Positions 20,461-51,481 of a stretch of DNA of 64,000 nucleotides are shown piece by piece (position 1 is the first letter of the stretch; each line of letters starts with the position of its first letter). Position numbers and translations under genes: made by a program. The stretch is from contig OX579634.1 of NCBI GenBank assembly GCA_951230915.1, forward strand, positions 51,783,570 to 51,847,569. Direction: 5' to 3'. Source of the stretch: Antitrichia curtipendula (lineage: Eukaryota; Streptophyta; Bryopsida; Hypnales; Leucodontaceae). The notes beneath the pieces are model-generated. The model saw only the letters and a program-made list of their open reading frames with translations. It was not told where the DNA came from and ran no database searches.

Positions 20461-21694
20461 TCAAAATGTAGTAGCATTGCATTTGTAATGAGTGCCTACA
20501 ATGGACTCTGAAGCACCTGTATTGTACTACTACTAAGCAAGATTTTCAGCTAAAATCATCTATACATATACTTTTGAGAGAGATGAAATGATAATAAAGG
20601 CATTAGGGAGGGAGATGTCCAAGTAAATGTGTCTACATATATAGCGTCATTATTTGTTTTTTGTCAATTTCATACTAATTTGAGAAGAATGTTCATGTGG
20701 CCAAAGACTTCTTATCCGCTATACGTTGGATGTGATGCATTGTGAGATGAATCTTGCCAAGAATTTTTTGAAAACAATAAGTGGAAAAAAGGATACAGTG
20801 AAAGTGCATCGGAATCTATAAAGAAGAAGTATACGGAAGCACCTGTGGTTGACACTGAGCCCTTGTAGAGCTGGTAAGATGTTGAAATCAGCTGCAAGAT
20901 ATTTTTTCTCTGATAAAGAGTATGAGCAATTTGCAGACATTCTTGCTTCTATGAAGCTTCCTTCAAGGTACTCCTCGTCATTTGGAAAGCATATGAAGGC
21001 TAAAAAATTTGGAAGCCTCAAATCACATGATTATCATGTGTTAATGCAGCAGTTGATGCCATTGGCATTGAGGGGTCTATTGAAGCCTGGACCTCGTATG
21101 GCCGTCATGCGGATGTGCAAGATATTTAGGAGAATATGCACAAAAGTTTATAATTCAACGGAGTTTGAGTCACTTCAATTAGATGTGGCTGAAAGTATGG
21201 CTCTACTAAAGATGGAATTTCCACTGTCATTTTTTGACATGATGACACACCTTCCATATCAAGTGCAGGAGCTTGATTTGTGTGGACCAGTGAGCACAAG
21301 GTGGATGTATCCAATTGAAAGATATATGAAAACATTGAAGAATTATGTTCAAAACATGACTAGACCAGAGGCGTGTATGGCAGAAGGGTACGTGAAGGAA
21401 GAATGCCTTGGCTTTGTAACAGAGTATTTGCAAAGATTTGAAGTTTTCAAGAGGCGTATATGGGATGCAGAGGAGGAATTTGGTGATGCTGAAGAGGTTC
21501 TTGAGGGAGCGGGTCGACCACTTGTAATGTCTCCTGCATTGCAGGATGTAGCGCATAATTATGTGCTGAATAATGTTGCTATTTTGGAGCCACTTGTCAA
21601 GTAAGTTGTACTAACTTCTTCTTCCACTTGTAGAATCCATTTAATAAAGCAGGAATATGTTGCAATATATTCATATGAAATTAGTTTGAATAGC

Positions 21695-21795
21695 AAACTA
21701 CTGACTAACATGCAACTAAAAAGCAACTAAAAAGCAATTAAAATGCAACTAACATGCAACTACAATGCAACTAAAATGCAACTAAAATGCAAGTA
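21695..21795. repeat. Short tandem ATGCAACTAA repeats in the last transposase intron
   Basis: Units of 10-11 bp (AAAGCAACTA, AATGCAACTA) repeat through the intron before the DUF4216-like exon. Confidence 0.75.
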
Positions 21796-22959
21796 TTGTC
21801 ACTTCAAAATTAATGTCTGAGGTAGTTGAATGGAATTGACCATCTATAGTATTTGCTACTAGGAAATCTTTACATTTGTGGTTTTGAACTTCTATCTTGT
21901 ATGTGCAAGAAGTGGAAGGAAGAATGTGAAATTGATCCAAGCACATCACCACTTGATGTGTGGATAAGAACAGTTGTTCGCAATAGTAATGTTGATGCTC
22001 ATACTCCGGAGGACAGAGATAGGATGTTATTATCCAACAGACCATCGCAAAAGACACATCGATATTCTCGTATGAGAGCTTTTGGAAATCATTTCAGGGT
22101 TGATGATAACTCTTCTAACCAATTGCAGACATATGATTGCGGTGTTGCATCTATATTCCAAATTCCAGCTCCTGATCTTCGAGACGTGTTAGTGCACTAC
22201 GTCAGAGTATGGAAAGATATATTGAAACTAGATTATGGATGTCTTAGCAATCCCGTGATACTAATGCGATGTGAATGGGTGAAAAAAACAGACAATCGAG
22301 GAAATCCAACATACATTAGGGATGATGATGGTTTCCTTGTAGTGAACTTCCGCCACAAAATGCGGAAGATGCATGATCCTTTTATTTTTTCAAGCCAAGC
22401 AATCCAAGTGTTCTTTGCTAATGATGTGCTTAGGAAAGAAGGTTGGAAAGTAGTATTACATAAGCAACCTCGTGCTCGACGAGAATTTGTAGACACATCA
22501 AATGTGTTCGTGAGCACCACTGTACAAACTTCTGGTCTAGTTGCTCCAGAGGATGTGCCTCCTCTACCTACTGTCCCGTCTCTATTTGGAGCTATAGAGT
22601 TATCTGTAGAGGACAATCTCTTGGCATCTGCAAAATATTAAGAGCATTCATGAAAAATATTCATTTTTTGTTTTCAACTTTGATACTATCTTCACAATGT
22701 TCTTTAGTCCAAATAAATTTATTACAGTATTGTATGTAGTTGTTAGCCTTCTATAAAAGAAAGAGGCAATTAGAAATGAAGTGATCCTTCATAGACTATA
22801 GGTGAATAATATCATAAGGCATGCTTATTTGATCTTTTGAATAGTGTGGCTACACTAACTTTGGACCAGCTTGGTGTACAGAAATGTTAGATTGCATCCT
22901 ATAGTGAACTCATAGTGAACTTATAGTCACAATTGTTTAGTAAAGCGAGGTTGTAACTC

Positions 22960-29095: not shown

Positions 29096-30530
29096 TCACG
29101 AGTCCCCATTGGATTTACCAGGAGGTACTAAGGTCTTGGATAAAACATGGCAATGGGGCGGGTCAATCCGTTTGTAGTAGTTTTTCAATGTGTCGGTAAT
29201 CTCAAAACCAAACTGCCTGTAAAATTCTATCGCCTCGTCGTTGTTAATCTGGACATGCAGATAAACTTCCACGATGTTGGGATCTTCCTTGCACAGATCC
29301 AACGCATTTTGAAGCAGCTTTGAGCCTGCGCAAAGCAGCGGCAAAAAAATTTCATCAGCACGTATAAGGATGACCCATCATAGGTCTTGCTGCAAGTCCA
29401 AGGTCCCGGATCTGGACTAGACAAGAAGATCGAAGCGCTTTCACTCCATTACACATCTGAAATGTAAGCACAAACCTCTCCTCTCCCTGCATCTTGGATA
29501 GATATGCACTGACGTTATTGCTATACTCCCGCTTGGAAATATCGAAATTGTACCAAGAATTCCGTTCAAAATTATAGAGGATCCTTCCCAAAGATGGACG
29601 CCAGGTGAAAAGCCTGTCTTAGACTTCAGGGTGACATTAAAGACATAGGAATAGTGTATCAAAACTGTCACCCTAGACTGCCTCAAGGATACCCGTAACA
29701 ATACAGAGGAACACGTGCATTCACTGCACGACTGTGTGCAGGTGACATTACAGACAATTAACTTACCGATTCCTAATCTCCGGTAAGGGGCGAGAACGCC
29801 CAGAGTCATTATGTAGAGCCGCACGTTGCCACCATCTTTCTTTTCCAAGCGACAGGCGATTGATCCAACGCATATATCATTGTAATATGCTGAAAAAAGC
29901 TCATCCCGATTCAGAAATCACGCAACTTACAAAGAAATTATTCATAAATTCACAGCCAAGAAAAGCTAAAACTGAACCCAGTGGCTGAAAAAAAAGCAAA
30001 AGGTAATCACACCCGCAATTGCCACTGACCCCAAATCGCCACCGTGAAGTCTTCGACAGTCGGTAGATATTGATTAAGAGGATGTAGACCAACTAAAAAT
30101 CTGATAAGTGTGGGGTTTTAGGTCATCTACCAATAAACCTGTTGAAACTTCCCAACCTACGCATACATTTGTTGGTGTGTTGGAATCCTCTATCATTTGC
30201 TAACAGAACAAGAAATTTGCAAGATAGTCTTCGACTACAATCGTGTCACAAGCAAGTCAAACACACAGATGCAGATACGATACGACCAAAAATGAAAATA
30301 CCCCCCAATCTCTAAAACCCTAAACACAAGCACGTGCGAAGACAACAGAAGCCAAGTAGGGGCAGGGCAATCGTACCAAGCTTGGTGAAATCGCCGGAGT
30401 TGAGTGCATCATTGTAAAACTTGTCCTGGTACGTGACAGGGAAGATGGCCGTGTTGAGCTTGCGCAACTGCATGATATTCTTGTCGCGCACAGAGTCGAA
30501 GGAGATCGAGGCTTCCTGCGGCCGACCCAT
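29096..30530 (-). CDS. NAA50: N-alpha-acetyltransferase 50 (NatE catalytic subunit)
   Basis: Three exons read leftward: 30530-30377, 29889-29767 and 29325-29096, with GT/AG junctions; the 507 nt encode 168 residues plus TGA, the usual size of this GNAT enzyme. The ATG at 30530-30528 gives MGRPQEASISFDSVRDKN, as in plant NAA50. Visible features are the substrate-binding FPV (residues 30-32), the catalytic Tyr of RLYIMTLGV (Y77), the acetyl-CoA loop RRLGIG (88-93), the catalytic His of LHVQ (H116) and the terminal NYYKRIDPPHCHVL. The family acetylates protein N-termini beginning with Met plus a hydrophobic or Lys residue and binds the NAA10/NAA15 complex at ribosomes. A 5'-UTR intron is likely at 30732-30659 (GTAAGT...TTTTAG). 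No damage is seen; this is the only complete host gene in the window. Confidence 0.95.
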
Positions 30531-35917: not shown

Positions 35918-36567
35918 TTTTATTTATTTATTTTGACACAAATGAAATGGAATTTCATTGCAAAGGAAAAATACAAATCGGCCAGCCACAAGAAGCCTGG
36001 CTGGAAGAGAACCCACCCTACCAGAGACAACACTACGGCCCGACCCAGGACAAAGAACAGCAAGAAAGCAGAGCTCAGTGGGGGGCCGTGAGGGCCCCCA
36101 CAGCTTGCCACCTCAAGCTGAGCCAAAGCCCTAACCCGCCGGGCCACCTTTCAAGGCGGTTGAAATATGAACCCCACCCTCGGCCCGGCCATCACCCACC
36201 GGGGAAGACCCTCAACCATGTCAACAAAGAAACCAAACCGACACCTCCTATCTAAAAAGTTTCCCCTTAACTTCTGCTTCTCCTCAAGGGAGGGGCACTT
36301 GAGGATGGTCACATAGTCCATTCGACTCTACCATAATCAATCATCCCACGCCAGATATGATCAATCAAAGCTAACGCTCTGGAGTCCACACTTGATTATT
36401 AAAAACGAGGTCATTAAGTTGCATCCAAAGAGTCCATAGAACTGTAGAGCAAAGTTCAAGCTAGATCCTCTTGACCTTGTTGAAATGTCAAGGGATTGCC
36501 ACCCAAAAAATCCCTTGGTGCCACGTGAGTGGCCACCACGGTCCTTGTGCCTCCCGCCCCTCAAGAG
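35918..36567 (-). pseudogene. LINE (non-LTR retrotransposon), 3' part
   Basis: Minus strand. The frame gives TLWMQLNDLVFNNQVWTPE and RGMIDYGRVEW, the last of which is typical of plant LINE ORF2 C-termini, then a GC-rich 3' UTR and an AAAT-type tail at 35935-35918. TTAGAGCTATTTA at 35905-35917 and 52785-52797 is a 13-bp TSD bracketing both LINE parts. It has stops and frameshifts and is 5'-truncated. The 5' part continues at 51482 on the far side of the 14.9-kb insertion. Confidence 0.85.
36557..36567. repeat. Left 11-bp TSD of the 14.9-kb element
   Basis: CCCCTCAAGAG, repeated exactly at 51471-51481. It is LINE sequence that was duplicated on insertion. MULE-type insertions normally give 8-12 bp TSDs. 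Confidence 0.85.
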
Positions 36568-36823
36568 GAGCGAAGCTAGTATACGAGCGTAGAGCATGGA
36601 GCATAAAAACTTAAGCTGGAATTAAAAAGAAATTCAAAATATTATGAATGTTTCTAAAACATAGTAATTTATTAGGGAGTATTTGAAAATTTGGCGAGAT
36701 TTTTTAAATTATTTATTTGAAACCTATAACCGTGGACCTAAGACCTTGTGTAATAAGATATTTTTTAATTTTTTAATATAAAATTATGATTCTGCTGTTG
36801 TGTTTATTAGTTGATTTATTTTG

Positions 36824-37090
36824 GGGTTAGGAGGGCCGTTTCGGGCCTGTTCCCAGTGTTGTTCCCTTGGCAGCAAAAGAACGGCCGCTGTCAGAAAATT
36901 CTTTTTCAAAAAAAAAATAAAAATAAAAATCTTAAAATGTAACAACAAGATGAACGATTTTTTTAAAAAAAATTTTAAATTTTTTTTTGCGTATGACGTG
37001 GTAGTCTCTCGGCCACGTGACGCAGCTGCTGCGGTTTAGGATTTAGACAGTTTCAGAGTCTTCGAATCCTGGGGAACTCGCAGCCCTCTA
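36824..37090. repeat. Dispersed GC-richer repeat, copy 2
   Basis: Homologous to 34150-34375; lies 250 bp inside the left end of the 14.9-kb element. It contains a long A/T-rich middle and CTCTCGGCCACGTGACG. Confidence 0.6.
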
Positions 37091-37386
37091 TAGGGACTGA
37101 AAAACATGTAATGTATAGGGTTCGTAGGGTTTCACACTAACAATAACAGCATTTCCACCTAATATATATGTCACATTAAATTTGGAAGGGAATCTCTCAA
37201 TAAATCATGCCAAAACTTAAAAAAGGAAAAAAAAACATTCAATTACAATGTACACAAATACAATGATATTAAAAATGTAGTAGTGGCCCTTTTGTCTCAC
37301 TACATATATAAAATGAATTGTAATACAAAGCACAAGTTGGTTTGCTTCTTCACTGGCCAAGTACATGGGTCGCTAATGACACTCAC

Positions 37387-40300
37387 CTATAAATTACTTT
37401 TGCACCTCAAAATGCCACTTTCAAGAATGCATTTGAGTTCATTGAAGCTAAAGCTTGGAGCATGAATGAAAACATCTACCTCTGCATTAAGGCGGCATAT
37501 GACAACAAATATGAAATACAAGTGCTTGCAATTTGCCCATTGCCTTCTCTTTCCTAGTGCCTTTGCTGACATATCCTTGAAATTAGGACAAGTGCATTCA
37601 GGAAATGAACCTATTGTCAATACATACTGTTGAATGTTAGGCGGTATACCTGAATCAAGCAATATGATGCATCCAAATCTTGGATGAGGTATCATAGTTA
37701 CCTGATGAATAGTAGCCTTCAAAGTAAGTGCAGAAGCACAGTTATTTGTTTATTTGGTTGTTGGCGCATTCGAATTTCTACGGATTTTTTTGCCAAACCT
37801 TGTACTAGGATGCTCTGCAGGAAAAGCTGGGACTTGGAATCCAGATACATCAAGAGGTAGCTCATGATCTCCAAACAACCTCTTCGGAGAAATTTCAACA
37901 CGCTTGGGAAGACGAAATCCTGCATTTTGAAGGTCCATAATCTCTTTTGGCGTTAGATTGATTCCAAACTTCACTAGCCAAATGCTAGGCACTTCAGGTT
38001 TAGAAAGAACCCATTTTCGCCTTGAACCTTTGACGCAACGCTCAATGTCGTCATTGCAGAAGAAAAATTGCATCACTTCAATCCTATTTTTCTTATAATT
38101 GGTCATGTTGCTTGTATAAGTTGGTGCTGCCGTTCCTTTATTGCCTTGCACAATTTTTGCAATACACTTCTTTTTCGTCAAAGCCTGTTGAGCAAAGCAT
38201 GCTTTAGCTGATGTCTTCGCAATCGCACAATATGCCACTGTAACTCATCACAAGCAGTTTCTTCGACCGTTGTTACTTGAGGTGCCATTGGTATTGTTGT
38301 TGTGTTCGATGGTCCAAGTGACACTAACATTTCTACATCTTCTTCGCTTTCATTGAAAAAAGGTCCTTCAGAGATTGTTTCCAAAGGAATCCTAGAAGAA
38401 CTTGCTTTGGTAGACCTTGGTCCTTGACGTGGTCGAGAGTAATTTACTTTGTCGGGACGATGTGAATCGTATTCAGATCCTAGCGGATAATCTGGCATCC
38501 GCTTCTGAGATCCAAAAATCTCTTCACCTTCAAAGTGGGGATTCCTAGTGCAATATTCTCCAGCCCCTGGTACACTTGCCATTGCATCATTAAGACCTTT
38601 AGGATTTCCAGTACGTTGAGCGTACCTCTGTGCAACACAAAGCATAAGTTCTTCCTTACTAGGACCTCTGCCTAGCTTGTTTCCTTTTAGAAACTGATGA
38701 CATTGAACCATTTGCATAAATGCCCTCACATAGTCATCAATAGTAGCAACGTACAAATCATTCCCCCGATTTCCAGATTGTTGCAGCCATTTATTATGGA
38801 CAGTCTCAGCAAGGTTGCAAGAAGGCATTTCTGCAAGCTCATTAGCTGGAAGATCCTGTATCAAGAAACATGGATTACAAGAAGACAGTATGAAATGCAT
38901 TGATGTTGCAAAATGATTTGTATATTTCATTAATTAGAGCAAAGAAATTACGTAAATTTCATGGAATCTACAAGTTTTGGATGGAAACTCTAAATTACAA
39001 GGGCATACAATTGAAAACAACATGCACAACTGATGACTAATATGGTACAAATAGATTCAATAGGGAAATTGAAGAATCTCACAATTTGCATAAATCTTCC
39101 CCACTGTCTGTACCGAAAGTGCCAAAATGCTAACCACAATTCCAGCCTTTGGAGGCCCTCTTCAATTATCGCTCCAGAAGAGTGTCACCATGATCGAATA
39201 GCGTGATATCGGATCTGAGAGTCGGCAGATGATGCTGCATCTTTGTATTGCTTACACAACTTCCGATGTTGATCTTGAAGGTCGGGACAAATATCTGCCT
39301 TCGTATGTTTTTCCATGGATTGAATCCAATGGAAGAGACATGTGCGCTCTCGATTGAGCATCAGCTTGGATGGATCACCACTCCCATAGATGATTCACAC
39401 CGCATTCCAGTTAGCTTACGCACTGTCAGCCATAAATTCCTTGAAATAAGGCAAGGGGATACCATATTTGGCCATAACGACGTTCAAATTATTCCAGAAA
39501 TTGCTTTGGACTATAGAATCCTCAGATTGCATGTCACAGAGAACAATGGTCATGACACGGCAGAAATTTGGATCATAAACATGGCATGCCATTGTTGTCC
39601 AATTCTTCACTCGCTTGACATGATCAAACATGATCCAGGCGTCTTGGAGGTCACCACCTGGTTGCATCCGTGTCACCAAATCGACTCCACTATTAGGGCC
39701 TAATTCAGACATTTTGAAGACAAAGACTTTGTCTGAATCAGATCCTTGACCGGGAAACTTGTTTTCTTGAACATAAGCCCAATTGCTGCATTCTCAAAGT
39801 TTGGTGATGCTGTCCATGACTCCAAACTTGCGAAAGTACTTGAAGGTGGTAACCTCATTTCTAATGCTAGGAGAACTCATATATTTGCATTTGTCAAGAA
39901 TAGGGAGGAGTTCATCAAGTCCAAACTTTGCAGCAGGAGCTCCCTCGGGTCAAAGAAGCAACTCTCCCAGTAGTTCCTTGCTGGCCTCTAGGACAATTGA
40001 AGAATTTGTTGCAGATGGAGTCCTCTCCACTTGATCAGAAATTAACAATTGAGTCTTCTCTCTTGAATCACGACAATCTCCCTCTTTTACTGGGTGCTCA
40101 TGAATACCGAAGTGAACACATGCTTGCCTCATCTCTTTGTTTCCAACAACATGATATATTTTTGCTGAGCAACTTGCAATACATGAAGGAACAGCAGAGC
40201 AAATCCTGCACGTGATGGTTGAAGTAGAAGGAGGGTTAAGACCCACCTCAAATGGAATGGGAGAGCATCCATCCCATTCGGTCTCATTCACAGATGATGT

Positions 40301-41182
40301 GCGATGCACACAAGTAAGGTAGTCACAATTGATGTTATCACAACAAAGATGACCCACGCATGAAGCAAGCCGAAACGTCAATCCATCATCGTTCTTGATG
40401 TTAGTCGTATGTGTATTTGACCAGACATGTCCATCATAGCGTTTCACCATTCCACTCAAAAGCTTGGCTTGACTATGAGCACTAGAACTTCGGAGGGGTT
40501 GTAATTCAAAAATGACGTTCCCATTGAAGACTGCTGGTACAAACTCTACCTGGTGAATAGCAATTCCATTATAATCTAACTTTTTGAATGGGTTCCTCGA
40601 TCCTTTCGTATGGCAAAGCCTCCGTAGGCAAGGAATTATGGATTTTTCGTGAATATTCTCGAATCCTGAAACTGTAGTTGGAGAAGGCACGGGAATTGTG
40701 CCTTGGACTTGTATTAGAGAAGACTGGATCGATTTCAGGATCTTGTAAGGTGGAGATGAGTCATCTAAATCGTCACTCAAAATTGTAATGGGCTCTAATC
40801 CTGGTTCAATTTTAATCCCTAGTGGCATTGGAGTCTCTTGAGTAGACGTAGTTGACAATCTAGGAGTACCTTCTCCAGAAAATGCCCTAATGGTTGATTC
40901 AGATAAACCATATGCTAAATATCTTCCCGGTTGCAAATGCCATTGCCTGCACTGGCTATCAAGGATAGGTTCTCGATTGAGTGTATGAGTCAATTCACCA
41001 TTGAGACTGTCAAAGATCTCTTCATCAATGTGTAAAGAACTCTCAGAAAGAAGAAACCGAATACTCAAACGGAATGCAGTGACAACAGCGTATCCTAATT
41101 CACCAATTGGAAATGTAATAGGAACTGTTTCCCCAGGTGACCTCATAATTGCCATTGAATTGACAGACATGCCTACGGTCAT
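37387..41182 (-). pseudogene. MULE-like transposase with zinc-finger-like and SWIM motifs
   Basis: Minus strand, N to C. A long first open block (41182-39950) has Cys/His clusters, SCVGHLCCDNINCDYLTCVH (~40380-40310) and TCRICSAVPSCIASC (~40215-40170), which may be a WRKY/GCM1-type DNA-binding zinc finger. The core follows: VMTIVLCDMQSED (~39550-39515), FMADSA then ANWNAV (~39435-39400) and NRERTCLFHW (~39365-39335), matching the MULE order of D, D and C-x-x-H. Next come 38860-38235 (ETVHNKWLQQSG...), 38238-37750 and a SWIM finger, ECTCPNF...WANCKHLYFI (~37590-37520). In-frame stops occur near 39948, 39800 and 39415, and there is a frame break near 38230, so it is dead. A possible N-terminal exon lies at 42861-42700. 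SWIM fingers are common at MULE C-termini. Confidence 0.7.
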
Positions 41183-43490
41183 TGCATTCAGTAACTGAGA
41201 AACTCCAATGCATTACTATTTTGCAGCGCTTGTAATATTGTGTATATGTGAAGGCAAATGAAGGACCAAGTGGGAGAAGAAGAAACGAACAACAAAAGAT
41301 ACGGATGAATATCTAGTTCTATCAAAAAAATATTAAATAAAAGTGAATTGAATAGGCACCGTCAGTTTAATTGTTAGTGGATAAATTTTAAATTTGTTGA
41401 CGGCCTGACAAGTATTCAATGAAATTGATGCATTGCATGTACTTAACTATCACAAAGATTTTCCTTAGAGATCTAATGAAGAAAATATTAAACTTTATGA
41501 CTTTGTACATCCAGATCCGTTGAGGTATTTTAATTTGGAATAAAAAATGAAAAGAACCACTTCAGTGAACACTCACCTATTTTGAGTGTAAAAAGTTGAA
41601 GTATATTGTAGAGGCAAATAAACAAAAATCATAGGGCATCTACACTACAGACCTTGCATACAAGCCCTGTAACGGGATATGGTGGGCCAATAAAGGCCTT
41701 AGAAATGTTGGTTCTTTCTTTGGAAGAATTTACAGAATGCAAACCTAAAAATTCCAATGTCAAGCGAAATTTCTGCATTACAAATAAATGAAATGAACAA
41801 ATTCATGTTGAAAAAAGACTTTTCATTGAGACAAAGGATAATCAAATTCATTGGCACAATCTACAATGCAAAAAAAGATTGACAATCATGACTACTCTTA
41901 CAAAGGGCCGACTTTTGCTCCCTTCAAGCATTGAAAATTTATGATCTTGGGTGGTCGCATACCGAGACCAGGGAATTAAAAGTCCCAATAACGGTTACAT
42001 TGGAACAGTATTTTAATAAATACTAAATGGGGACCTTGTACAATGTTGATATTGTATAAGATGCATTGTAAATGCCCTTCAATGATTATGAACTTCTTAA
42101 ATTATATTTTGCACATATCAGAGAACACCCTAAACTATATAGGTAAACTAGGACAATAACCGAATTTCTAACTAAATGAGAGCAAATCAATTGCGAAAAA
42201 TGTGTACTGGTTATGTACATGGCAGAACATAAATGCACACCACCGTTACAATTGTGCTTACCACTGGCTTGTTGCCATGTAGTTTGTTGTAAGGTAGGTT
42301 TCTTTTTTTTGAATGAAGCCGTAGAGCTATTGATTAGCATTGTGTCCTCTCAAGAACCTGATATAATTATGGAATCAATTTAATAACGACCTACAAAAAC
42401 GGACAGGTTTTGATGAATTTTATTGTCTTTAAAGCAAAACGTGTAGAAGCGCCAGAAACTAAACAAGTGAGAAAAAGCATTAATGCGTCATTTAACTAGA
42501 AAATTTGAATTACATATAGGTGTAACCTCTCTTGCACAGAGATCACTTCACTGCTTTAGAAAGTCATTGCGCAGCTCAAATGCCTAGAGTGGAAAATAGA
42601 TCCCCTTTACTAGAGAGACCGAAGCAAAGGAAGAGAAAGTATAGTACTAGTTACTCCTCGAAGAAAGCACTTCAGCAATCTAAAGAACAAAGTACTCGTA
42701 AAGCGACAAGTCCAGGAGTCTTGTCTTCTCTTACTAAGAAGCTTATGTTCACGGGCATTGAAGTTAGGAGATGTAGATTCATCATCAAGGTGCTCTTCTC
42801 CAACAAATATGATTTTAGAATCAGTTATTGAAGTCAAAGAGCGGGAAGATTTCAACAACACCGATTATCATACTCTTCAGGTTCACTCTATGTTGTTATA
42901 TCAACTTGTGACTTAACTTAGTGGTATGAACAGGCTCAATAAACTTAGAAACCACTGAGTTGTCAATATTGTTCTGCATAAACCTCTGAGTGTCTAGTCT
43001 AATATATCGATAGCATATTCTTGGCTTGGAGTCTTTTAGTGATTTTTAAGTCCTTCCACCATATGCTACAACACCAGAACATACATCACAGAAAATTGCA
43101 AGAACCACTAGCGACGCGTCATTCTTTTTCCTCACAAATAAAAAATTGCAGCAAGGGTGACTTTTTTTATTTCAGTCTGATTACGAGATTCAATAATTCT
43201 TAGGTTTTATTGAGGATCAATCTGGAATGAACCCTGCCGCATGAAACCTAATCCAGCACTCTTTAAGTTGAATGTCTAACTAATTTGTTGATGAAAAGAG
43301 TATTTGTTGTGAAGTGACGTGGCATTTGCGGGTATACTAGAAATTTTTAATGGCGGTACGAGATCCAGGTCAGGCACTTTCACAATATTGTAGATTGGAA
43401 GTCGACGAGACGTGCAACGTGAGTTCGTCACTGACGTTTTGGAGGTAGGTCTTACCGCCGTAGGTTCTTGTTGCCAGATCTCTTGCAATT
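41183..43490. other. Centre of the 14.9-kb element, transposase side
   Basis: Mostly AT-rich without motifs. On the minus strand 42861-42700 reads SRSLTSITDSKIIFVGEEHL followed by DDESTSPNFNAREHKLLSKR, an acidic/serine-rich open stretch that may be an upstream exon of the transposase; the plus-strand frame there (42532-42831) is probably its shadow. Confidence 0.35.
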
Positions 43491-43552
43491 CCTGCCCACC
43501 GTAAGCTGGACACACCGTAATACCTGCCCACCGTAATACCTGCCCACCGTAA
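43491..43552. repeat. CCTGCCCACCGTAA tandem repeats
   Basis: CCTGCCCACCGTAA occurs three times, with a related GGACACACCGTAA between the first two. More ACACCGTAAG copies lie at 43682 and 44341. Position between divergent genes suggests protein-binding sites, but this is inference. Confidence 0.8.
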
Positions 43553-43742
43553 GTTCAGGCGCAGCTTACATTTTGGCGCGGCAGAAGTTCTTGGTTGTCT
43601 TCTTGGTCCTTTGCTGGCTCAGTCGCACTTGCTCGAACAAGGCAAACCTGAGCTTGAGTGCGAGTGCTGCACAACTCCGTCACACCGTAAGTTCACAGCA
43701 GGCCGGCCTGGCGCAGCAGAAAACCATCGCGCCGCAAACTCT

Positions 43743-45423
43743 CGTCGGCACCGACGGGTCGCTGGAAAGCCAGGAACTGCAGCTGAGGTCTCCGATGATT
43801 CTTGACCCCGTCGGCACCGACGGCACTCGAGATCTTCATCCCCTGCAGCTGAACACAATCCTTGAGGGCTGAAGGAAATCACTTCCACATTGGAGTATTG
43901 TGCCTGATCTTATACCTCCCGCCAACTTCTCTTAGTTTTTGTAGTACTTCCAAATTGATTTCATCCGCCTTGTGAAATCAGAAAGGACGATGTGTGATTT
44001 GAATTCTCTTTGTATCGATTAATGTGACTCCCGCTTAGATTTTGTATTCCTATTCAGAGACTTTGGTCTTGTTGAGAGAGCCGAACTAGTTACTGTGATC
44101 ATCAATACTGGTTACTAAACTAGCGATCAACTGGAATCGGGATCGGTCTTGATCTTAAACTGATCTTAACCGATTTCGGATTCAGACTGATACTTTGAGA
44201 GCTTGGAGTTGGTAACGAGAGTTGAGAACCTTGACTGAACTGCGAAGAAGCCTGACAGAACTTCGAAGAGGGTCCGATGAAGCTGAACCGGCCGGTCAGT
44301 TTCCGTTCATCTTACATCATAAGATTCATCTGATCCTCTTACACCGTAAGCTGAACCGACCGGCCATTTCATATATTTTTTTGAATGACCATTTCTTTAC
44401 CGATTATGCTGCCCTGAGTAACGAGCTAGGTATGAAATTTACTACTAGATATTGCAAGCCAACTACAGCTTAAGGAAATATAGATGTCGTCGGCACCGAC
44501 GGTAGTTTGAAATTTCACATAAACAGTTGTTCTTTTAACGACTAGGACGGTGTTACGATTAGGATTCAGATTTTGATTAAGATTTCTCATTAGTTGATTT
44601 AAATTTCATGTAATCAACTTGTGATCTTAGATTTTGGTGCAGCTGTACAAAGATGATCCCGGGCAGATCCTATCTTTGTGTTTATCAGATCTAGTTCGTA
44701 ACTGGGTCCGATGCAGCCAAATTGGCCGGTCAGTTCTCTTCGTTGTCTGTTTAATCGATTTCATGTTTCTTGAGATCGATTGTGTTGGTCCGAGGAACGA
44801 GCCAGCGGAAATAATTGCAGTTAGGTGTTGCAAGCCAGTTGAAATTCTAGGAAATGCAGATCTCGTCGGCACCGACGGTTGTTTGAAATCTCATCTTTAC
44901 AGCTGTTCCTTGATCGACGAGAACTATGTAAAGATTAGGATTAGGATTTATCCAAGATCGATTGCGCTGCTCGTAAGTCCTTTTTTTTATTGTCTGTTTG
45001 TTGGGATCGATTGTGTTGCTCCGGATATAGAGCAGATAAAGAAATTATCCCCCGTTGTTGCAGTCTAGTTGCGACCGCAGCTGTTCCTTTTACAAAGAGG
45101 ACTGCATTACGATTAGGGTTTAGTATTAGGATTTGGATTTCAGATTTAGATTAACATTTTACAATCACTGATTCAAATTTGAGTACTCGATTTTTAGTCC
45201 CCACTCTTGAAGATCGGTTATTATTTTAGTGCGGCTTCAAATCCTGGTTGGAGTAGTGATCTTGAAGGCTTCTGCTGGTCCAAGTACTGAATTCCAACCT
45301 ACACTAAATTATGCAGTCTAACAGATGAAGGAGTCGACCAAAGGTGTAAATACAGAATGGGAGACAATTGTGTCAAATACCAGCTGCGGTGTCTTGGACT
45401 ATATGATCTCGTCGGCACCGACG
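43743..45423. promoter_or_regulatory. Five copies of a near-palindrome with fixed-distance CAGCTG
   Basis: CGTCGGCACCGACG occurs exactly at 43743-43756, 43809-43822, 44488-44501, 44864-44877 and 45410-45423. It is a 6-bp inverted repeat around CA. In every case CAGCTG (CAGTTG once) follows after 22 or 23 nt. Sequences around copies 3 and 4 are longer degenerate repeats (~376-bp period) that also share a (T/C)GGCCGGTCAGTT word and GCAAGCCA. In one frame the near-palindrome encodes VGTDG, so a coding tandem repeat is an alternative, but stops interrupt that frame around copies 3 and 5. The array lies upstream of the methyltransferase gene. Confidence 0.75.
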
Positions 45424-46049
45424 ATGTGAATGATCTTCTTATGTTGCAGCTGGTTTTGTTTGGATTTAAGGGTTTACAGTTATTTTAGTTTGTGGTTTGT
45501 CCAGTTTATTGGATGATGTGGAATTTCGTCATGTGATAGCTCGAATGTTTTGTGTTTGTGGTTGATGTGTTTGATTTAGATTTGTAACCTCATCTCAATT
45601 GGTGAAGCATCAATATCTCCCAAATATATTCGTATCTTGATGAAGTTTCAATCGTTCTTAAGTTTTTTGGTATTCCAGTACATGATGTTGGTAGCGTACA
45701 ATGTTTTTGCATAAGGGTGATTTACTTTATAGGATTGTTGGATAAAAAAGATTTGGTGGAATTTATCAAGTACAATTAATTTAGTGTTTCCACTCAATTC
45801 AAAGAAAGCTTGTTCAATTTATGCTTTGATGGAAGTGTATATCTTAGTTTGGATGGGTAGCACTAATTTGATTCAAGTCTACTAGTTCTTGATCTTGATA
45901 GAAATTATCAACCATTAAAATCTAGAATGAAGTGAAAACATTAATTATATAAATGATGATTGATTTTGCTATGGCTAGTTTATTCACCCAGTCAGTGTAA
46001 TTTGCATGTTTGGTTCCAGGATTTTCAGAATCAGGTACCTGCAAGAGCC
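45424..46049. other. Leader region of the ParB-methyltransferase gene
   Basis: AT-rich with no family motif; it probably contains promoter, 5' UTR and perhaps an intron ending at a CAG near 46027. Confidence 0.35.
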
Positions 46050-49000
46050 ATGGAAGGGACCCCTAGAGTATTGCGTTCTCAAGTGGAGACGGAAATTGGA
46101 GACCCTTCCAACAACCAGGTTCAAAAACACATCCTTATGTGTATACAAAGAAATGATTATATCTTGTGTTTGTTTGATTTTTTCATTTCTAAAGTTTTTT
46201 ATTTAATTTTGTTACAGGGTCCTTCAGTAATGGAAGATGCCATTTCGGAAGGTCTAGAAGAAATGCAAGAGATTGATTCTGATTCCGATATGGCTGATAA
46301 TTGTAAGGGTGGTGAAGATGAGTTTCGTTTCACGCAGAAGGTGAACTCCATCGATTGTATTCAAGACATGAGAATCTCACCAAAGGAAGAATCACGATTC
46401 TTTATACCGCTTTGCCGTATGATTCCTATGCCTATTGTTCGCCCGTCATTAGACTTTGATATCAAGAGACTAGAGGTAGCGTTCACTCACGGTTATAGAC
46501 CTGGTTCAAGTGTTTTTTATGTTTTAGTTTGTGACGAGAAAGGGTAGATACACACTATATCAACTGAGGAGAAAGATCAAATGAGTCCACTCTGGAAATT
46601 AGAGAGTGATCGCTTTGATGCAAAGCTCCAACAAAACGAGCACCTTCGTCACTTGGTTGGAAGGAAGTTCTTTATCTGTGATGGAAATCATAGATTTCAG
46701 GCTTGGACTGCATTTATAGAAAGATTGCATAGAGAAGATCCAGTCTAGCATTACTCCGTTGATAGTATTGTCTTAGATCCATCTGGCAAGACAGCGCTTC
46801 TATTACACGCAATGCACGACATAAACAAGTAAGTTTTTGTTTTTGAACTAGTTTGTCAACCTCATTGTCATATCTTCTTGCTAATATTCTACATTGTAAT
46901 CCAAATCCGCGGTATTTATACAAATGATACACTAATGATTCTTTCACCTAATGTTTTACCGTGTAATCCAGATCCACAGAGAACAGTCATGTGAAGACAA
47001 ATCTAGTTCATACCTTGCATAGGATTCGTGCTACTGGAACACAGTCTTTGGAGGCATTCAAAGATATACTTCCTGAGTGGGAGTTCAAAAAATGCCAAAA
47101 AAGTCCAACGAGGGGGAAAACTTGGTACCCTTTGACTACAGAGGTGTTCATATCCTTGATTTGGCGGGTGAGTCTTATATCATATTTTACTATTTTCTAT
47201 TGCAATGGTACAAAATTGGATTACTTCTTATTGTAAAGTAAAGTTCTCTTTCTAATATCCAGAAATGCTTAATGTACAACAAAAAATTGTTGATGCCGCC
47301 GATGAAGTTGCACGAAAATTGTCAGAGGAAGAACCAACATTACAAAAAACTGACCAGGAAATCACAACTGCTATGCTAGCTGCCACTAAATTGAAGACTA
47401 ATAGCTATAAAGGGTAGTTTTCAAAATTGCTAGCAGTTTCACATCCTACCTTAGGGGAAGATTTCTTGGCCGAGGTATATTTATTTATTTCAAATCCATT
47501 GCCTTTTTGCTCACAGTTGTTAGTAACTTAGATATAAACTAATATGGATGTTTAGTTTTATTTTATATTAATTTTGTATTCTATTGTGAAGGTCACTTTG
47601 CATTGGAGCAGGAATTCGAAATCTGAAATGACATTGGACAAACTCCAACTTCTTGCAACATTTGTTGGTTCAGCTTCATTTAAAGTCAAATGTTTACGTT
47701 GGTGGAACTCCGAGGCACTAACAAGACAAGCTTCCCATTTTCCAAGCAAACCTTTCTCAGATAAGGATTTTGAATCTTGGTTGAATAAGGCTTGCTTTGG
47801 GGCATCTGTAAGTGTCCTTCGTAACCATACTTTTTGAACCTTTTTTTTTTTTCAATTCCCTAAAAGGATATATAATACTGACTTTGACTACATTTTGTAT
47901 CCCGTTTTATTTGATAATATATTTTTACTATGAGTGCAGCTGGAAGACGAATTCATCTTGGAATATGAGAAGATGCAGAAAGAAGAAGGCCTTACAATGG
48001 AAGTGAATTCTAGTAATATTCCATTGTCTCCTGCCGAATTTGTAGAGTACTGGCGAATTCGCGTTTGGGTGCATGGTTTTTTGTCTCTGTTTTGAGGCAA
48101 AGATGCATATTCAAGGACTAAGGCATTCAGTTCTTATACCTATACTTCATAGATTGTGAAACGAGTGCTTTACAGGTATAACTACTCATTACACATTTCC
48201 TAAGATGATAAAAATTAACATTTTCAATTTTTCTTCATCTTCTTTTGCTCATTTCATGTATTGAACATTTACAGGTATATCATGTTTGAATTGTTGCCCA
48301 AAGGTGCTGTACAGAGGACTAAACTTCCTGGATTCATTACATCATGGATTGACAAAAATGCATCGATCAATGTATGTATTCTACGGGTTTGATTCGATCT
48401 TGGAGTGTATTGCATTTAAAATCTGGTGGTTGGTATATGGAGTGTGGTGGTGGATTTTGCCCGACTGAAGAAGAAGCAATGAAGAATGCCATTGACCGAG
48501 CAGAAAAAGGATTGGGTGGCTCTGATTAGCCAACTCCAAGTGTTGATCAAACTATTGACGAGCATGATATTAGTGCCATTGATCTTTCCCACATGAACGA
48601 CAAAGACAAATCAAAGGCTGTGAAACAAATGAAACGAGCTGCTGAAAAGGCTGAAGCTCGGAAGGTAATCGATGAGCAAAAAAAGGCAATGAAAGCTTCA
48701 AAAGCAGGCTTACTGGCTAATGTGAAGGCCTTGGTTGCAGAGGTTGTAGCAACAATTAAGGCTACTGGTAAAGCACCAAAGAACTTACAAGGTATTGGTA
48801 CGTCAGGCGTTGAGTGCACCCAAACCTCTTCTACATCGCCATCACGAGTTCTTCGAAAGCGAGACTCCTCCAATATTGACCTTACTGTTTCCAGACTTTC
48901 CCTAGGCCATATGCCCATTCCAGTAGTAGATAATTTAGACCCTGATGGAACGGATGCCTTCATCTTCAATGGCTCCCTCCACTCTCTTTTAAGCCATCGT

Positions 49001-50578
49001 GTTAAACATGGGTCTTTTCCTTCAGGTTGGACAGAGCTTCAGGCCTACCTTGAAAAGGTAATATTGAATTTTTTTCTTACATTTGTAATCATTGGTTTGA
49101 ATGTGATATATCTTTTTTTTAACTTTCATTTTTCTATTTTTCATTTTTTTCTAATGATCTCACTTTTTCAGCACAAGGCAAATAAGGAAAGGACATTCAA
49201 AGGCGTCATTTCCCAATCTCGAGCTATTGACCTCAGGATCATAGACATTCCCGAGGGATTGTCCATTCCAGGAGTGTCTTCTCCACCTCTGGTTATTCCA
49301 CCTTGGAACACGGTTCCTGTAGACTTTCTGAAATCCGCCTTTGATTTTGCCAATAGTCACCTTCTTGATGACAGAGCCTTACTTGTTTTTCATTCCGAAG
49401 CTGTCCAAATGAAAACACAATTGAAGAGTTTCTGTCGAGTATTTCACTTCAAAGTATATCGGAAATGGATTGGAATCAACGGTCTTCATTTAACCAGCGC
49501 TCGAGACTCATCACAGATGGTACGCTACCTTGTTTTTCAATAGTAGTTTTATTTTGAGCTCTTCTATTATTTTAATTCAATTTTTTTTTTGGATATTGCT
49601 AATTTCTGGAAGTGGGTGGGTTCATTCTATGCAGACACTATGTTTTGGCATTCAACTACTTGTGAGAAACTTTCCAAATGTTCCACCTTCTCATTTCAAG
49701 GTGCAGTTGGTACTTGGTTTAGATACTGCTGGAATTCATGTTGAGTTGGATGATGTGCTTCACAATGGTGTAACTAAAGATTCACAACTTCTAAATGGCA
49801 ATATTCCATGGCGTGGACCTCAAGAAAAAGACCCTAGATTTCTACAGATTCTCATAGAATCTTTTTTTTTGCCCGGAGATATGGTGTTTGATTGTTTAGC
49901 CGCTACAGGTTTGTAAATTTATTACATTCAGCATTCATGTTTAATTCATATATGTTGAGGTCTTTGATTTTCATATTTTTATTTATTCTTAAATGTCTTC
50001 TGTTACAGGTTCTAGTATCCATGCTTGTCGGAGGTCTGGTCGACACATAGTGGCCTTTGAAGAAGATGCATTGATTTTCAATGCTCTCTTACAACCACAT
50101 ATCATTGAGAAATCCTATCCAATTTCTGAGAAGCAACAAGTAGAGGAAGAATTCAGTAGCTCAGATGCAGATGATGAATTGGATTCAGAAGTACCAGAAA
50201 TTGAAGCTACTAATTTATTCTATACATAAGTCTTTGCAGTATTTGAATATGCAGTTCTTCTATTTGATTTCTTTACAAACACTTGTTAATTTTGTACTGT
50301 TTCAATTTACTAATATTTTTCACATTTTGTTACAACGCAGCTCAAGGATGACTCCATCTCCCACAAGGACCTCTATTCTTCAACCTCTATGGAAGGAGAT
50401 AATGACTAGCCCCTCTAAACCTTTTGTATTACCAGTTTATGCTCGTAATGTAGCAAAAGATTTTGTGAAGGCACCTCCTAGGTCACGTAAGTCTCATAAT
50501 TTTTGTGGAGATCGAAGAGTTCTACAGTTTGTAGATGATGCAGCAGATTGTGATAGCGATGATGATTGTGACTTGTGA
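46050..50578 (+). pseudogene. ParB-like domain plus beta-class DNA amino-methyltransferase-like domain, spliced, degraded
   Basis: At least ten exon-like blocks with GT/AG borders, starting at ATG 46050. Exon 1 is 46050-46118; exon 2 (46218-46828) has RPSLDFDIKRLE, GYRPGSSVFYVLV and GRKFFICDGNHRFQAW, which resembles the ParB/sulfiredoxin fold motif (DGNHR like the GHGR/GERR box). Middle blocks (46972-48178) are unidentified; 48593-48780 is Lys/Ala-rich coiled coil. 49172-49517 has LVIPPWNTVP, in the place of catalytic motif IV ([DNS]PP[YW]). 49635-49908 plus 50011 on gives PGDMVFDCLAATG then SSIHACRRSGRHIVAFEED, a good match to the SAM-binding motif I. Motif IV before motif I marks the beta class (N6-adenine or N4-cytosine). 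In-frame stops occur near 46544, 46746, 47414, 48092 and 48526, so the copy is dead. The end is DSDDDCDL. Confidence 0.6.
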
Positions 50579-51470
50579 GTAGTTCAGACATTGCAACTAC
50601 TCTAGATGCTTCCATGTACTCATTTTCAAACCTTCATTTGATCGGTGAGACTAAAAGGGCCACCATTTTTTATGTTTTCATTTCTCTTTATCAAGTTCAA
50701 TCACACAAGTTCAATCACACAAGTTCAATCACACAAGTTCAATTAAATTTTTGGGTTATAGAAATTTATAATGTATTGAACTAGTTTTGCATTTTTGAAG
50801 TCCAAAAATGTTGTTCTTTATTGGAAGTTTAAATTTTAAATGGCACTCTCATATTGAATGGAATGGTCTGGACAATCTAGCCAAACTGTGCGAATAATTT
50901 GAAGTTATTATATTTTGAAAGTCATTTTAAAATTATACCATTACCACATTTTCTACAACATATTTGATGTTTACACGGTGAAACTTTCTTCTTCACTATT
51001 AGCATAGTAAAATAAATCCAATAAAAGTATTACCTATTTATTTTTGTGAACTCTTGATCTCCAACAGGATTTATGTAAGCCAAATGTAGTGTAATTAACT
51101 TGTTAATTGATTTTTAATCATTTTTCAAAATGATTACCGAGTTGAAATTTCATCATTGCAAATCTTTATTCATATACGTGTGTAATGCATAAATAGGTTG
51201 CTATGAAAATTGTTTGATATTATTAAGTCTACTACATGTTGAAACCCAAAATATTGACAAAATAATTTCATGTTTAATTTGTATCAATGAAATTTAGTTC
51301 AACTGAATTTGTTTATATTAACCTTACCCCAATCACCTTCAATTTACTACACGGTCTTAGGTCTTTAATTGCACACGGTAATAGGTTTTCTTTTTTATAA
51401 ACTTCAAATCTTCTCAGAAATTCATTTGTAATCCACGCTCTAGGCTTTAGGCTCATGCGACAGCATTCCC
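50579..51470. other. Right arm of the 14.9-kb element, no gene
   Basis: AT-rich. Contains a three-unit tandem repeat of TCACACAAGTTCAA (50699-50742). The last ~40 bp form the weak right terminal repeat. Confidence 0.45.
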
Positions 51471-51481
51471 CCCCTCAAGAG
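51471..51481. repeat. Right 11-bp TSD of the 14.9-kb element
   Basis: CCCCTCAAGAG, identical to 36557-36567. Confidence 0.85.

Follow-up and report, generated by a model that had tools for sequence, protein, structure and literature searches.

Does a DNA methyltransferase-like gene that lies within a plant transposon belong to the element, and if so, what might its product do there? The question is raised by a 64,000-nucleotide stretch of Antitrichia curtipendula DNA (hereafter the window), in which positions 36568-51470 form a 14.9-kb transposon sitting inside a dispersed repeat. A preliminary description had read in it two divergent genes, one for a MULE-like transposase and one (gene 2) with a ParB-like and a beta-class methyltransferase part, and had marked as inferred that both belong to a single mobile unit. 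We find that the stretch is one decayed copy of a large two-gene cut-and-paste transposon family. Both gene regions are present, the transposase on the minus strand (37387-41212) and gene 2 on the plus strand (46051-50578), and the compared pieces of the window copies carry five and three in-frame stops, respectively.

The element is flanked by the 11-bp word CCCCTCAAGAG, one copy of which lies at 36557-36567 and the other at 51471-51481. As a control for chance, a shared 9-mer was found in 8 of 3000 random draws of same-size sequence pairs, pairs less than 500 bp apart being skipped. A query in which the flanks are joined through one copy of the duplication matches 10 other places in the same genome nearly end to end (78-87% identity), and nine more places (65-86% identity) span the flank junction with less query coverage or lower identity; the flanking DNA is thus a dispersed repeat, other copies of which are uninterrupted. 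The ends originally drawn from an exact 11-bp duplication are kept; the length of the duplication is best given as 10-11 bp. At the window element, C9:13.5 and C4:6.09 the two flanks of each element share 11 bp, the eleventh matching base being indistinguishable from chance, and the duplication is 10 bp long at C2:15.4, C5:24.06 and C4:46.1. It is present in six of the seven elements with both ends located; the remaining one, C4:43.4, shows no duplication of 6 bp or more. The left end (36568-36604, plus strand, GAGCGAAGCTAGTATACGAGCGTAGAGC...) contains a 19-bp core that recurs in five other copies of the same subfamily, A (once with one mismatch), and exactly in subfamilies B1 and B2, whose right ends were not found. 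With the left end, the right end of the window element (51437-51470, minus strand, reading inward GGGAATGCTGTCGCATGAGCC...) forms a weak inverted repeat; terminal inverted repeats are short and degenerate in subfamily A, and subfamily C has clear ones of about 20-35 bp.

Do the two genes travel together? Five further copies hold both between the same ends, such copies at other sites have duplications of their own, and three diverged subfamilies likewise keep both. Gene 2 is found, in the same order and on the same strand, in seven of eight loci picked by their transposase (five A, B1 and B2), and the eighth, C9:10.8, enters a satellite array beyond the end of the 30 kb examined. None of these eight was shown to be a transposase-only copy between the same ends. 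One locus that had looked like such a copy, C8:14.7, was rejected as one, since 10 kb more of sequence revealed gene 2 behind an 8.1-kb satellite. Taking the best 100 transposase places and the best 150 methyltransferase-exon places, we counted 12 divergent pairs at 5-20 kb, against a mean of 0.29 and a maximum of 3 in 500 random placements. Moreover, selection acts on both genes. Among six A copies dN/dS is 0.30-0.91 for the transposase ORF and 0.17-0.37 (15 pairs) for gene 2, which is under purifying selection, the exon encoding its DGNHR motif reaching 0.05-0.24. Because copies elsewhere have their own duplications, the gene pair persists in diverged subfamilies and each gene is under selection, what had been an inference, that they form one mobile unit, is now supported. 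Plant elements often capture pieces of host genes, and gene 2 could in principle be a passenger caught by chance in one copy. The seven loci of eight with constant order and strand, the excess of divergent pairs, the diverged subfamilies and the purifying selection lead us to reject this reading, to which we leave practically no probability.

The transposase gene, given here as ORF pieces rather than spliced exons, covers 39950-41212, 39416-39793, 38178-38933, 37750-38244 and 37387-37749 (minus strand), and 100 or more places in the genome are related to it. Its last piece contains a SWIM-like finger, CxCx(n)CxH, which was read by eye in several subfamilies and to which the Pfam SWIM model gave no match; a D..C..H motif order was also read by eye. 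The 10-11 bp duplication falls within the 8-11 bp of the MULE (Mutator) superfamily, which these putative motifs also resemble; the element differs from it in its short ends and in the lack of a Pfam MULE match. Up to E 1 for the window gene (five pieces), E 5 for two ORFs of C8:14.7 and E 10 for the six alignment members, no Pfam model matched, the looser thresholds being limited by HMMER filters that discard most matches above E about 0.1. An AlphaFold model of 734 aa was too poor (mean pLDDT 35) to show an RNase H-like DDE fold. The earlier assignment to MULE thus keeps its motifs and duplication length but lacks a profile match, and is not established. The protein, with its MULE-like motifs, would move the element via its ends and make the 10-11 bp target duplication.

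Gene 2 contains introns, its start and splice joints are approximate, and a DGNHR-motif domain precedes a methyltransferase-like domain. On the plus strand, the DGNHR exon (ParB/Srx-like by motif) occupies 46218-46829, with DGNHR itself at 46680-46694; the exon at 49172-49519 has DIPEGL (49244-49261) in place of DPPY; that at 49635-49910 carries GPxEK (motif X) and FDCLAATG (SAM motif I); and that at 50009-50230 continues the SAM-binding half (HIVAFEED). Other copies of the gene have no stops in the pieces compared. Of 7994 candidate proteins scored against the composite, none was a relative at E up to 1.

Profile comparisons trace gene 2 back to a beta-class N6/N4 DNA methyltransferase. It matches PF01555 at E 2.2e-5 (24.9 bits, under the curated cut-off of 26.7), the CcrM model at E 5.6e-6 (far under the equivalog cut-off) and phrog_67 at E 6.8e-8, and hhalign pairs it with a phage PF01555 enzyme at 95% probability over 186 columns, D[IV]PEGL being aligned on DPPYNI. 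D[IV]PE was also aligned on the DPPY of two adenine methylases of solved structure, where the stretch has no significance of its own (score -0.1). Such descent is supported, but an active base methyltransferase, as in the preliminary description, is not, as the catalytic tetrad DPPY is replaced by D[IV]PE in 12/12 loci, with both the first proline and the aromatic residue changed. Since this replacement is found at each of these loci, self-methylation by the gene-2 protein is unlikely. SAM motif I, DCx[AV][AS]TG, is complete in 10/12 loci, and the motif X stretch is likewise conserved; the exceptions in motif I are C3:3.27, where the alignment ends one residue short, and C2:45.6, which reads DCSAAIG. 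Conservation of this motif argues that SAM is still used by the protein, and weighs against the regulator reading favoured below. Could gene 2 then encode an active amino-methyltransferase with an unusual D[IV]PE, which marks the element's own copies, as the preliminary description proposed, by methylating A or C in the palindromic TCGGNNCCGA sites described below or close to them? The retained SAM motif and motif X stretch speak for it, as do the palindromic nature of the sites, like many methylase targets, and the conservation of the replacing loop itself (the full D[IV]PEGL in 10/12 loci), as would be expected of an active-site loop. Nevertheless, two residues of DPPY are lost at all 12 loci, and the rotifer N4C methylase, in the part of its description available, was inactive after the change of SPPY to APPA (PMC8885841). 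We therefore hold an active enzyme to be improbable, if far from negligible.

The first domain of gene 2 is more elusive. It has the DGNHR motif, a weak DUF1015 match (best E 0.039, in two of five members) and a fragment match to DUF262 (E 2). A ParB Pfam match and a PDB match were not found, comparison with phages and plasmids gave no convincing match, and a phage methylase as the partner did no better. The AlphaFold model of this ParB-like domain was also poor (mean pLDDT 40). The reading of this domain as ParB is thus not established.

Between the two genes lie palindromes with the core TCGGNNCCGA, which the preliminary description had missed. Five copies of CGTCGGCACCGACG occur in the window, at 43743-43756, 43809-43822, 44488-44501, 44864-44877 and 45410-45423 (plus strand), against none in 100 shuffles. 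At least two copies of TCGGNNCCGA are found beside the transposase gene in 12/12 loci, with gene 2 on the opposite side in 11/12, and among 1024 half-site/gap combinations it is the only one with at least two copies in 7/7 subfamily groups, the runner-up reaching three groups. In the A copies, identity to the window is 80-97% for the palindromes versus 63-81% for their flanks. Genome-wide, TCTCGGNNCCGAGA occurs 1775 times versus 4 for the control. Of the 50 TCTCGGNNCCGAGA sites listed, 39 have a listed gene place at most 30 kb away, and all 39 are on the partner's side, where 2.9% of the stretch qualifies; 11 of these 50 sites and 14 of 41 CGTCGGCACCGACG sites are near no gene place listed, which is not decisive either way. 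We discarded a candidate correlation, in which the palindrome centre CA would track the methyltransferase lineage, on finding the centres CC, AG and GA in a second element of subfamily C.

What binds these sites? Other plant elements have transposases that bind repeated motifs, and the palindromes, lying between both genes, could serve either, so the transposase or a host factor might bind them, for example to regulate a shared promoter, with gene 2 unrelated to them. However, 6-9 kb separate the palindromes from the ends of the window element, and at nine of ten loci neither the ends nor any other remaining part of the element contains the core; in the tenth, C3:1.88, it occurs twice more in the remainder of the element, and three further occurrences lie outside. 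To our minds such a binder is rather unlikely, roughly on a par with an active methylase. In some loci the palindromes have been multiplied into satellite arrays, from 4.7 kb to over 21 kb long, whose tandem units of 148, 182 and 224 bp carry them. Such arrays, and the DGNHR domain that precedes the methyltransferase-like part, would also suit a parS-like centromere, as in plasmids, on which the DGNHR/ParB-like domain loads and spreads, clustering or segregating the copies instead of regulating expression. We consider this very unlikely, as the domain gives no ParB Pfam match, no ParA-like gene was noticed in the ORF lists, and a chromosomal transposon needs no segregation.

We give about an even chance to another reading, that the gene-2 protein itself binds the palindromes as an element-encoded regulator or anti-silencing factor of the VANC type. 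Such a regulator would recognise a specific DNA sequence and would probably have ceased to methylate bases; by loading on the TCGGNNCCGA palindromes, in the promoter region that the two genes share, it would maintain expression of the element or keep it free of silencing, as VANC does on the VANDAL motif arrays. In VANDAL elements, a MULE group of Arabidopsis, the available part of the source describes short motifs that are multiplied in non-coding DNA, often in tandem, and vary between related elements (PMC5735166). As here, a DNA transposon is combined with a second element-encoded protein and a multiplied non-coding motif (PMC5735166). The differences are several: VANC carries DUF1985, with no methyltransferase domain named in that part, whereas the protein here is methyltransferase-derived; its motif YAGTATTAY is non-palindromic, whereas ours is a palindrome with CpGs; and loss of methylation was shown for VANC (PMC5735166), whereas here it would be a prediction. 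DUF1985 gave no Pfam match in the gene-2 pieces scanned, the middle exons being scanned in part. A further and more tentative proposal, which we regard as possible though somewhat short of even, is that a bacterial methyltransferase fused to a ParB-like domain became a sequence-specific, SAM-binding pseudo-methylase that reads the CpG-bearing palindrome TCGGNNCCGA, repeated within the control region of the element itself. Each subfamily would then have, in its protein and satellite array, a private code for anti-silencing or self-recognition that arose independently of VANC.

Other mobile elements carry genes of the DNA-methyltransferase family. The available text of one account mentions DIRS retrotransposons with Dam-like N6A methylases, dinoflagellate and charophyte retrotransposons with DNMTs, and DNA transposons with a DNMT in marine viruses (PMC5890265). 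These elements resemble ours in having their own such gene; they are mostly retrotransposons, and no plant cut-and-paste element with a beta-class methyltransferase-like gene is among those in that text (PMC5890265). The bdelloid rotifer N4CMT is likewise a bacterial-type amino-methyltransferase in a eukaryote, but it is described as having been acquired from bacteria, its SPPY is intact and it has a chromodomain, and the part of the source available does not describe it as transposon-carried (PMC8885841). Among the open-licence literature matches listed (titles and abstract starts), no description of an element such as ours was found. An abundant bryophyte cut-and-paste family, the 'Nitro' DNA transposons of moss sex chromosomes, has reportedly been described by Carey and colleagues in 2021; if the present family is identical to it, the family itself is already named. 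In the partial text of the moss and 'Nitro' literature matches, the word meant nitrogen only.

Few transposons have had their escape from host silencing worked out at the molecular level, and the family offers a testable second plant case, in which a protein and a short DNA code both vary naturally within a single genome. It also presents a DNA-methyltransferase-derived protein that is kept under selection after a change of its catalytic tetrad, and long satellite arrays tied to a candidate binding site for an element-encoded protein.

Finally, the substitutions in the palindromes count against the regulator reading. In the aligned A-copy palindromes, 10 of 13 substitutions are CpG transitions, which suggests that the sites are methylated by the host at CpG in decaying copies. 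Protection of these sites, if any, would thus not be permanent.

The window, C2:51783570-51847569 (contig:position), belongs to an assembly of 400 Mb in 303 contigs. The 11-bp duplication from which the preliminary description set the ends of the transposon is indeed present, as CCCCTCAAGAG at window 36557-36567 and again at 51471-51481. When the two flanks were joined and used as a query, 10 other genomic places matched near full length (78-87% identity), and a further 9 spanned the junction at 65-86%, with less of the query covered or at lower identity. The insertion thus hit a repeat that is dispersed in the genome and has uninterrupted paralogues.

The proposal that the transposase gene and the divergent second gene (gene 2) form one mobile unit, which called for other loci carrying both between similar ends and duplications, is borne out by the copies found. 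Five of eight loci selected by transposase match (C4:43.4, C2:15.4, C9:13.5, C5:24.06 and C4:46.1, in Mb), which we call subfamily A with the window element, have both its ends and both its genes, and all but C4:43.4, which is without a flanking duplication, lie between duplications of 10-11 bp. An element of another subfamily, C, is flanked by GGTGGGGATAG, bringing the total with a duplication to six of seven elements. Long aligned gene blocks of the A copies are 86-95% identical to those of the window element, and their intergenic regions are 65-78% identical or unaligned, except at C4:43.4. Two further, diverged loci, C3:1.88 (B1) and C8:14.7 (B2), compared by left end and genes with the right ends not located, have the left end in common with these, and in both of them gene 2 is likewise transcribed divergently; its amino-acid identity is 42-46% over the exons with DGNHR and motif I, and 24-57% over other exons. 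The eighth locus, C9:10.8, turns into a 182-bp satellite at 8.4 kb that continues up to the limit of the 30 kb retrieved, with the gene-2 side beyond view. The loci C4:6.09 (C), C3:2.92 (C2) and C5:8.04 (E) were selected by a known methyltransferase place and are not independent evidence of pairing.

The pairing is also seen across the genome. A transposase piece (window 39950-41212) matched at all 100 scored places (the best 100 of 1390 first-look candidates), and a gene-2 exon (49638-49910) at all 150 (the best 150 of 1078). Among these places, 12 pairs are divergent with a spacing of 5-20 kb, where 500 random placements gave 0.29 on average and never more than 3; counting any layout, 15 pairs are no more than 30 kb apart, for which the random figures were 2.3 on average and 7 at most. 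The sizes of four contigs are estimates in this control. A divergent partner was found at nine of the 10 top-scoring transposase places; unpaired places are uninformative, since only the best candidates were listed. Additional gene copies adjoin two elements. Just past the C9:13.5 element lies a second, diverged gene-2 copy (L016:176-2168, C9:13498175-13500167; 31-46% identity) with stops and a retained DGNHR motif, and beside B1 lies a transposase of another subfamily (L023:4828-8204), 42-51% identical to that of C8:14.7.

The preliminary description had called gene 2 a methyltransferase gene, and this holds for its descent, but probably not for active catalysis. Matches to its C-terminal exons are PF01555 (E 2.2e-5, a little short of the curated cut-off), the CcrM model (E 5.6e-6) and phrog_67 (E 6.8e-8). 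A six-composite gene-2 profile matched solved adenine methylases in the SAM half (E 0.0011) and a Lactococcus phage methylase, which itself matches PF01555 at 5e-42, over 186 columns (hhalign probability 95%, E 2.8e-8). The phage alignment places D[IV]PEGL of gene 2 on DPPYNI, and the solved enzymes agree with this register, in a segment not significant alone. In the list with the solved methylases, two interferon chains (E 0.00024) also matched the profile, in another part of it and with no individual segment under the limit, and were read as chance. The first domain has the DGNHR motif in a ParB/Srx-like arrangement, read by eye, with weak profile support. One main rival explanation, that gene 2 is an active methylase, could appeal to an unusual active site, but, with each locus read separately, D[IV]PE replaces the catalytic DPPY in all 12 distinct loci (PEGL in 10, PEEL in one, PEGM in one), and in a related enzyme the SPPY to APPA mutation kills activity (PMC8885841, available part). 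As the SAM motif is kept (complete in 10 of 12 loci), a protein that binds SAM and DNA without methylating is more likely.

Gene 2 is under purifying selection. In the 15 pairs from six A copies (Nei-Gojobori, stop codons omitted), its dN/dS is 0.17-0.37 (DGNHR exon 0.05-0.24, methyltransferase exons 0.21-0.45) against 0.30-0.91 for the transposase ORF, and is the lower in all 15. Stops occur within the compared pieces in seven of nine copies, the window's included, and are absent from those of C4:43.4 and C8:14.7. Between subfamilies the two genes give conflicting distances: transposase dN is 0.19-0.24 for A versus B, 0.20 for B1 versus B2 and 0.34-0.38 for A versus C, whereas gene-2 dN is 0.55-0.62, 0.24 and 0.50-0.54, respectively, so that A is close to B by transposase only. 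The gene-2 half may have been exchanged between subfamilies; alternatively, there may have been a change of rate.

The region between the genes carries a repeated palindrome. In the window it holds five copies of CGTCGGCACCGACG, a motif that the other parts of the 64 kb lack and that 100 shuffles failed to produce. Its core, TCGG-N2-CCGA, is the sole one of 1024 half-site and gap combinations that occurs at least twice next to the transposase gene in every one of the seven subfamily groups (12 loci), the runner-up reaching three. Gene 2 lies on the far side of the palindromes in 11 of the 12 loci, C5:8.04 having been fetched to the gene-2 start only. In nine of 10 loci examined the core is absent from the remaining element and fetched flank; C3:1.88 has two cores in the remaining element and three outside. 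The palindrome flanks vary by subfamily, with a CG-core in A, a CC-core in C and a TC-core in B and others. Across the genome, CGTCGGCACCGACG was matched 41 times and its reversed control five times: 25 of the 41 sit inside eight A elements, between transposase and gene-2 place, two are 17-19 kb away from a further gene-2 place, and the other 14 are elsewhere. For TCTCGGNNCCGAGA there are 1775 sites against four. Of the 50 that were listed, 39 have one of seven listed gene places no more than 30 kb away, and every one of these falls on the side of the partner, in a zone that makes up 2.9% of the stretch. Where A copies align, the identity to the window is 80-97% for the palindromes, compared with 63-81% for the 60-bp flanks. 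At the 21 kept sites of 25 (gapped sites and those with over three mismatches excluded), 10 of 13 substitutions are CpG transitions, which suggests the trace that host cytosine methylation would leave.

This arrangement, a multiplied, subfamily-specific non-coding motif together with a second conserved protein encoded by the element, is common to the Arabidopsis VANDAL/VANC system, for which binding and methylation loss were demonstrated experimentally (PMC5735166, available part). We favour a VANC-type working as the most likely mechanism, in which the gene-2 protein would bind the palindromes in the region of the divergent promoters; what we infer here is which protein binds, that catalysis has been lost, and the outcome. 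The other main rival to a gene-2 protein acting in this way is that the transposase is the palindrome binder.

The palindrome also lies within the unit of tandem arrays: 148 bp at C8:14.7 (54 exact cores in about 55 units), 182 bp at C9:10.8 (66 in about 119) and 224 bp at C5:8.04 (15 in about 21). The 182-bp satellite covers at least 21.6 kb of C9:10810000-10839999 (pieces L026-L027 and L041) and adjoins a long open transposase ORF. The 148- and 224-bp arrays are located inside elements, and some satellites of the genome thus grow inside a transposon.

Among the titles and abstract starts listed from the open-licence literature, no cut-and-paste transposon of a plant with a beta-class methyltransferase gene was found. 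Should the moss transposon family 'Nitro' prove identical, the present family already has a name. Retrotransposons carrying DNMTs or Dam-like methylases have been described, and there is mention of DNA transposons in marine viruses that encode a DNMT (PMC5890265, available part).

Directly after gene 2, a 14-bp unit, CAAGTTCAATCACA, stands in tandem at window 50692-50743. Elsewhere in the window, two long ORFs at 20822-22641 (plus strand) presumably resemble plant CACTA-type transposon proteins, and an ORF piece at 29441-29917 (minus strand) resembles what we take to be the plant acetyltransferase NAA50.
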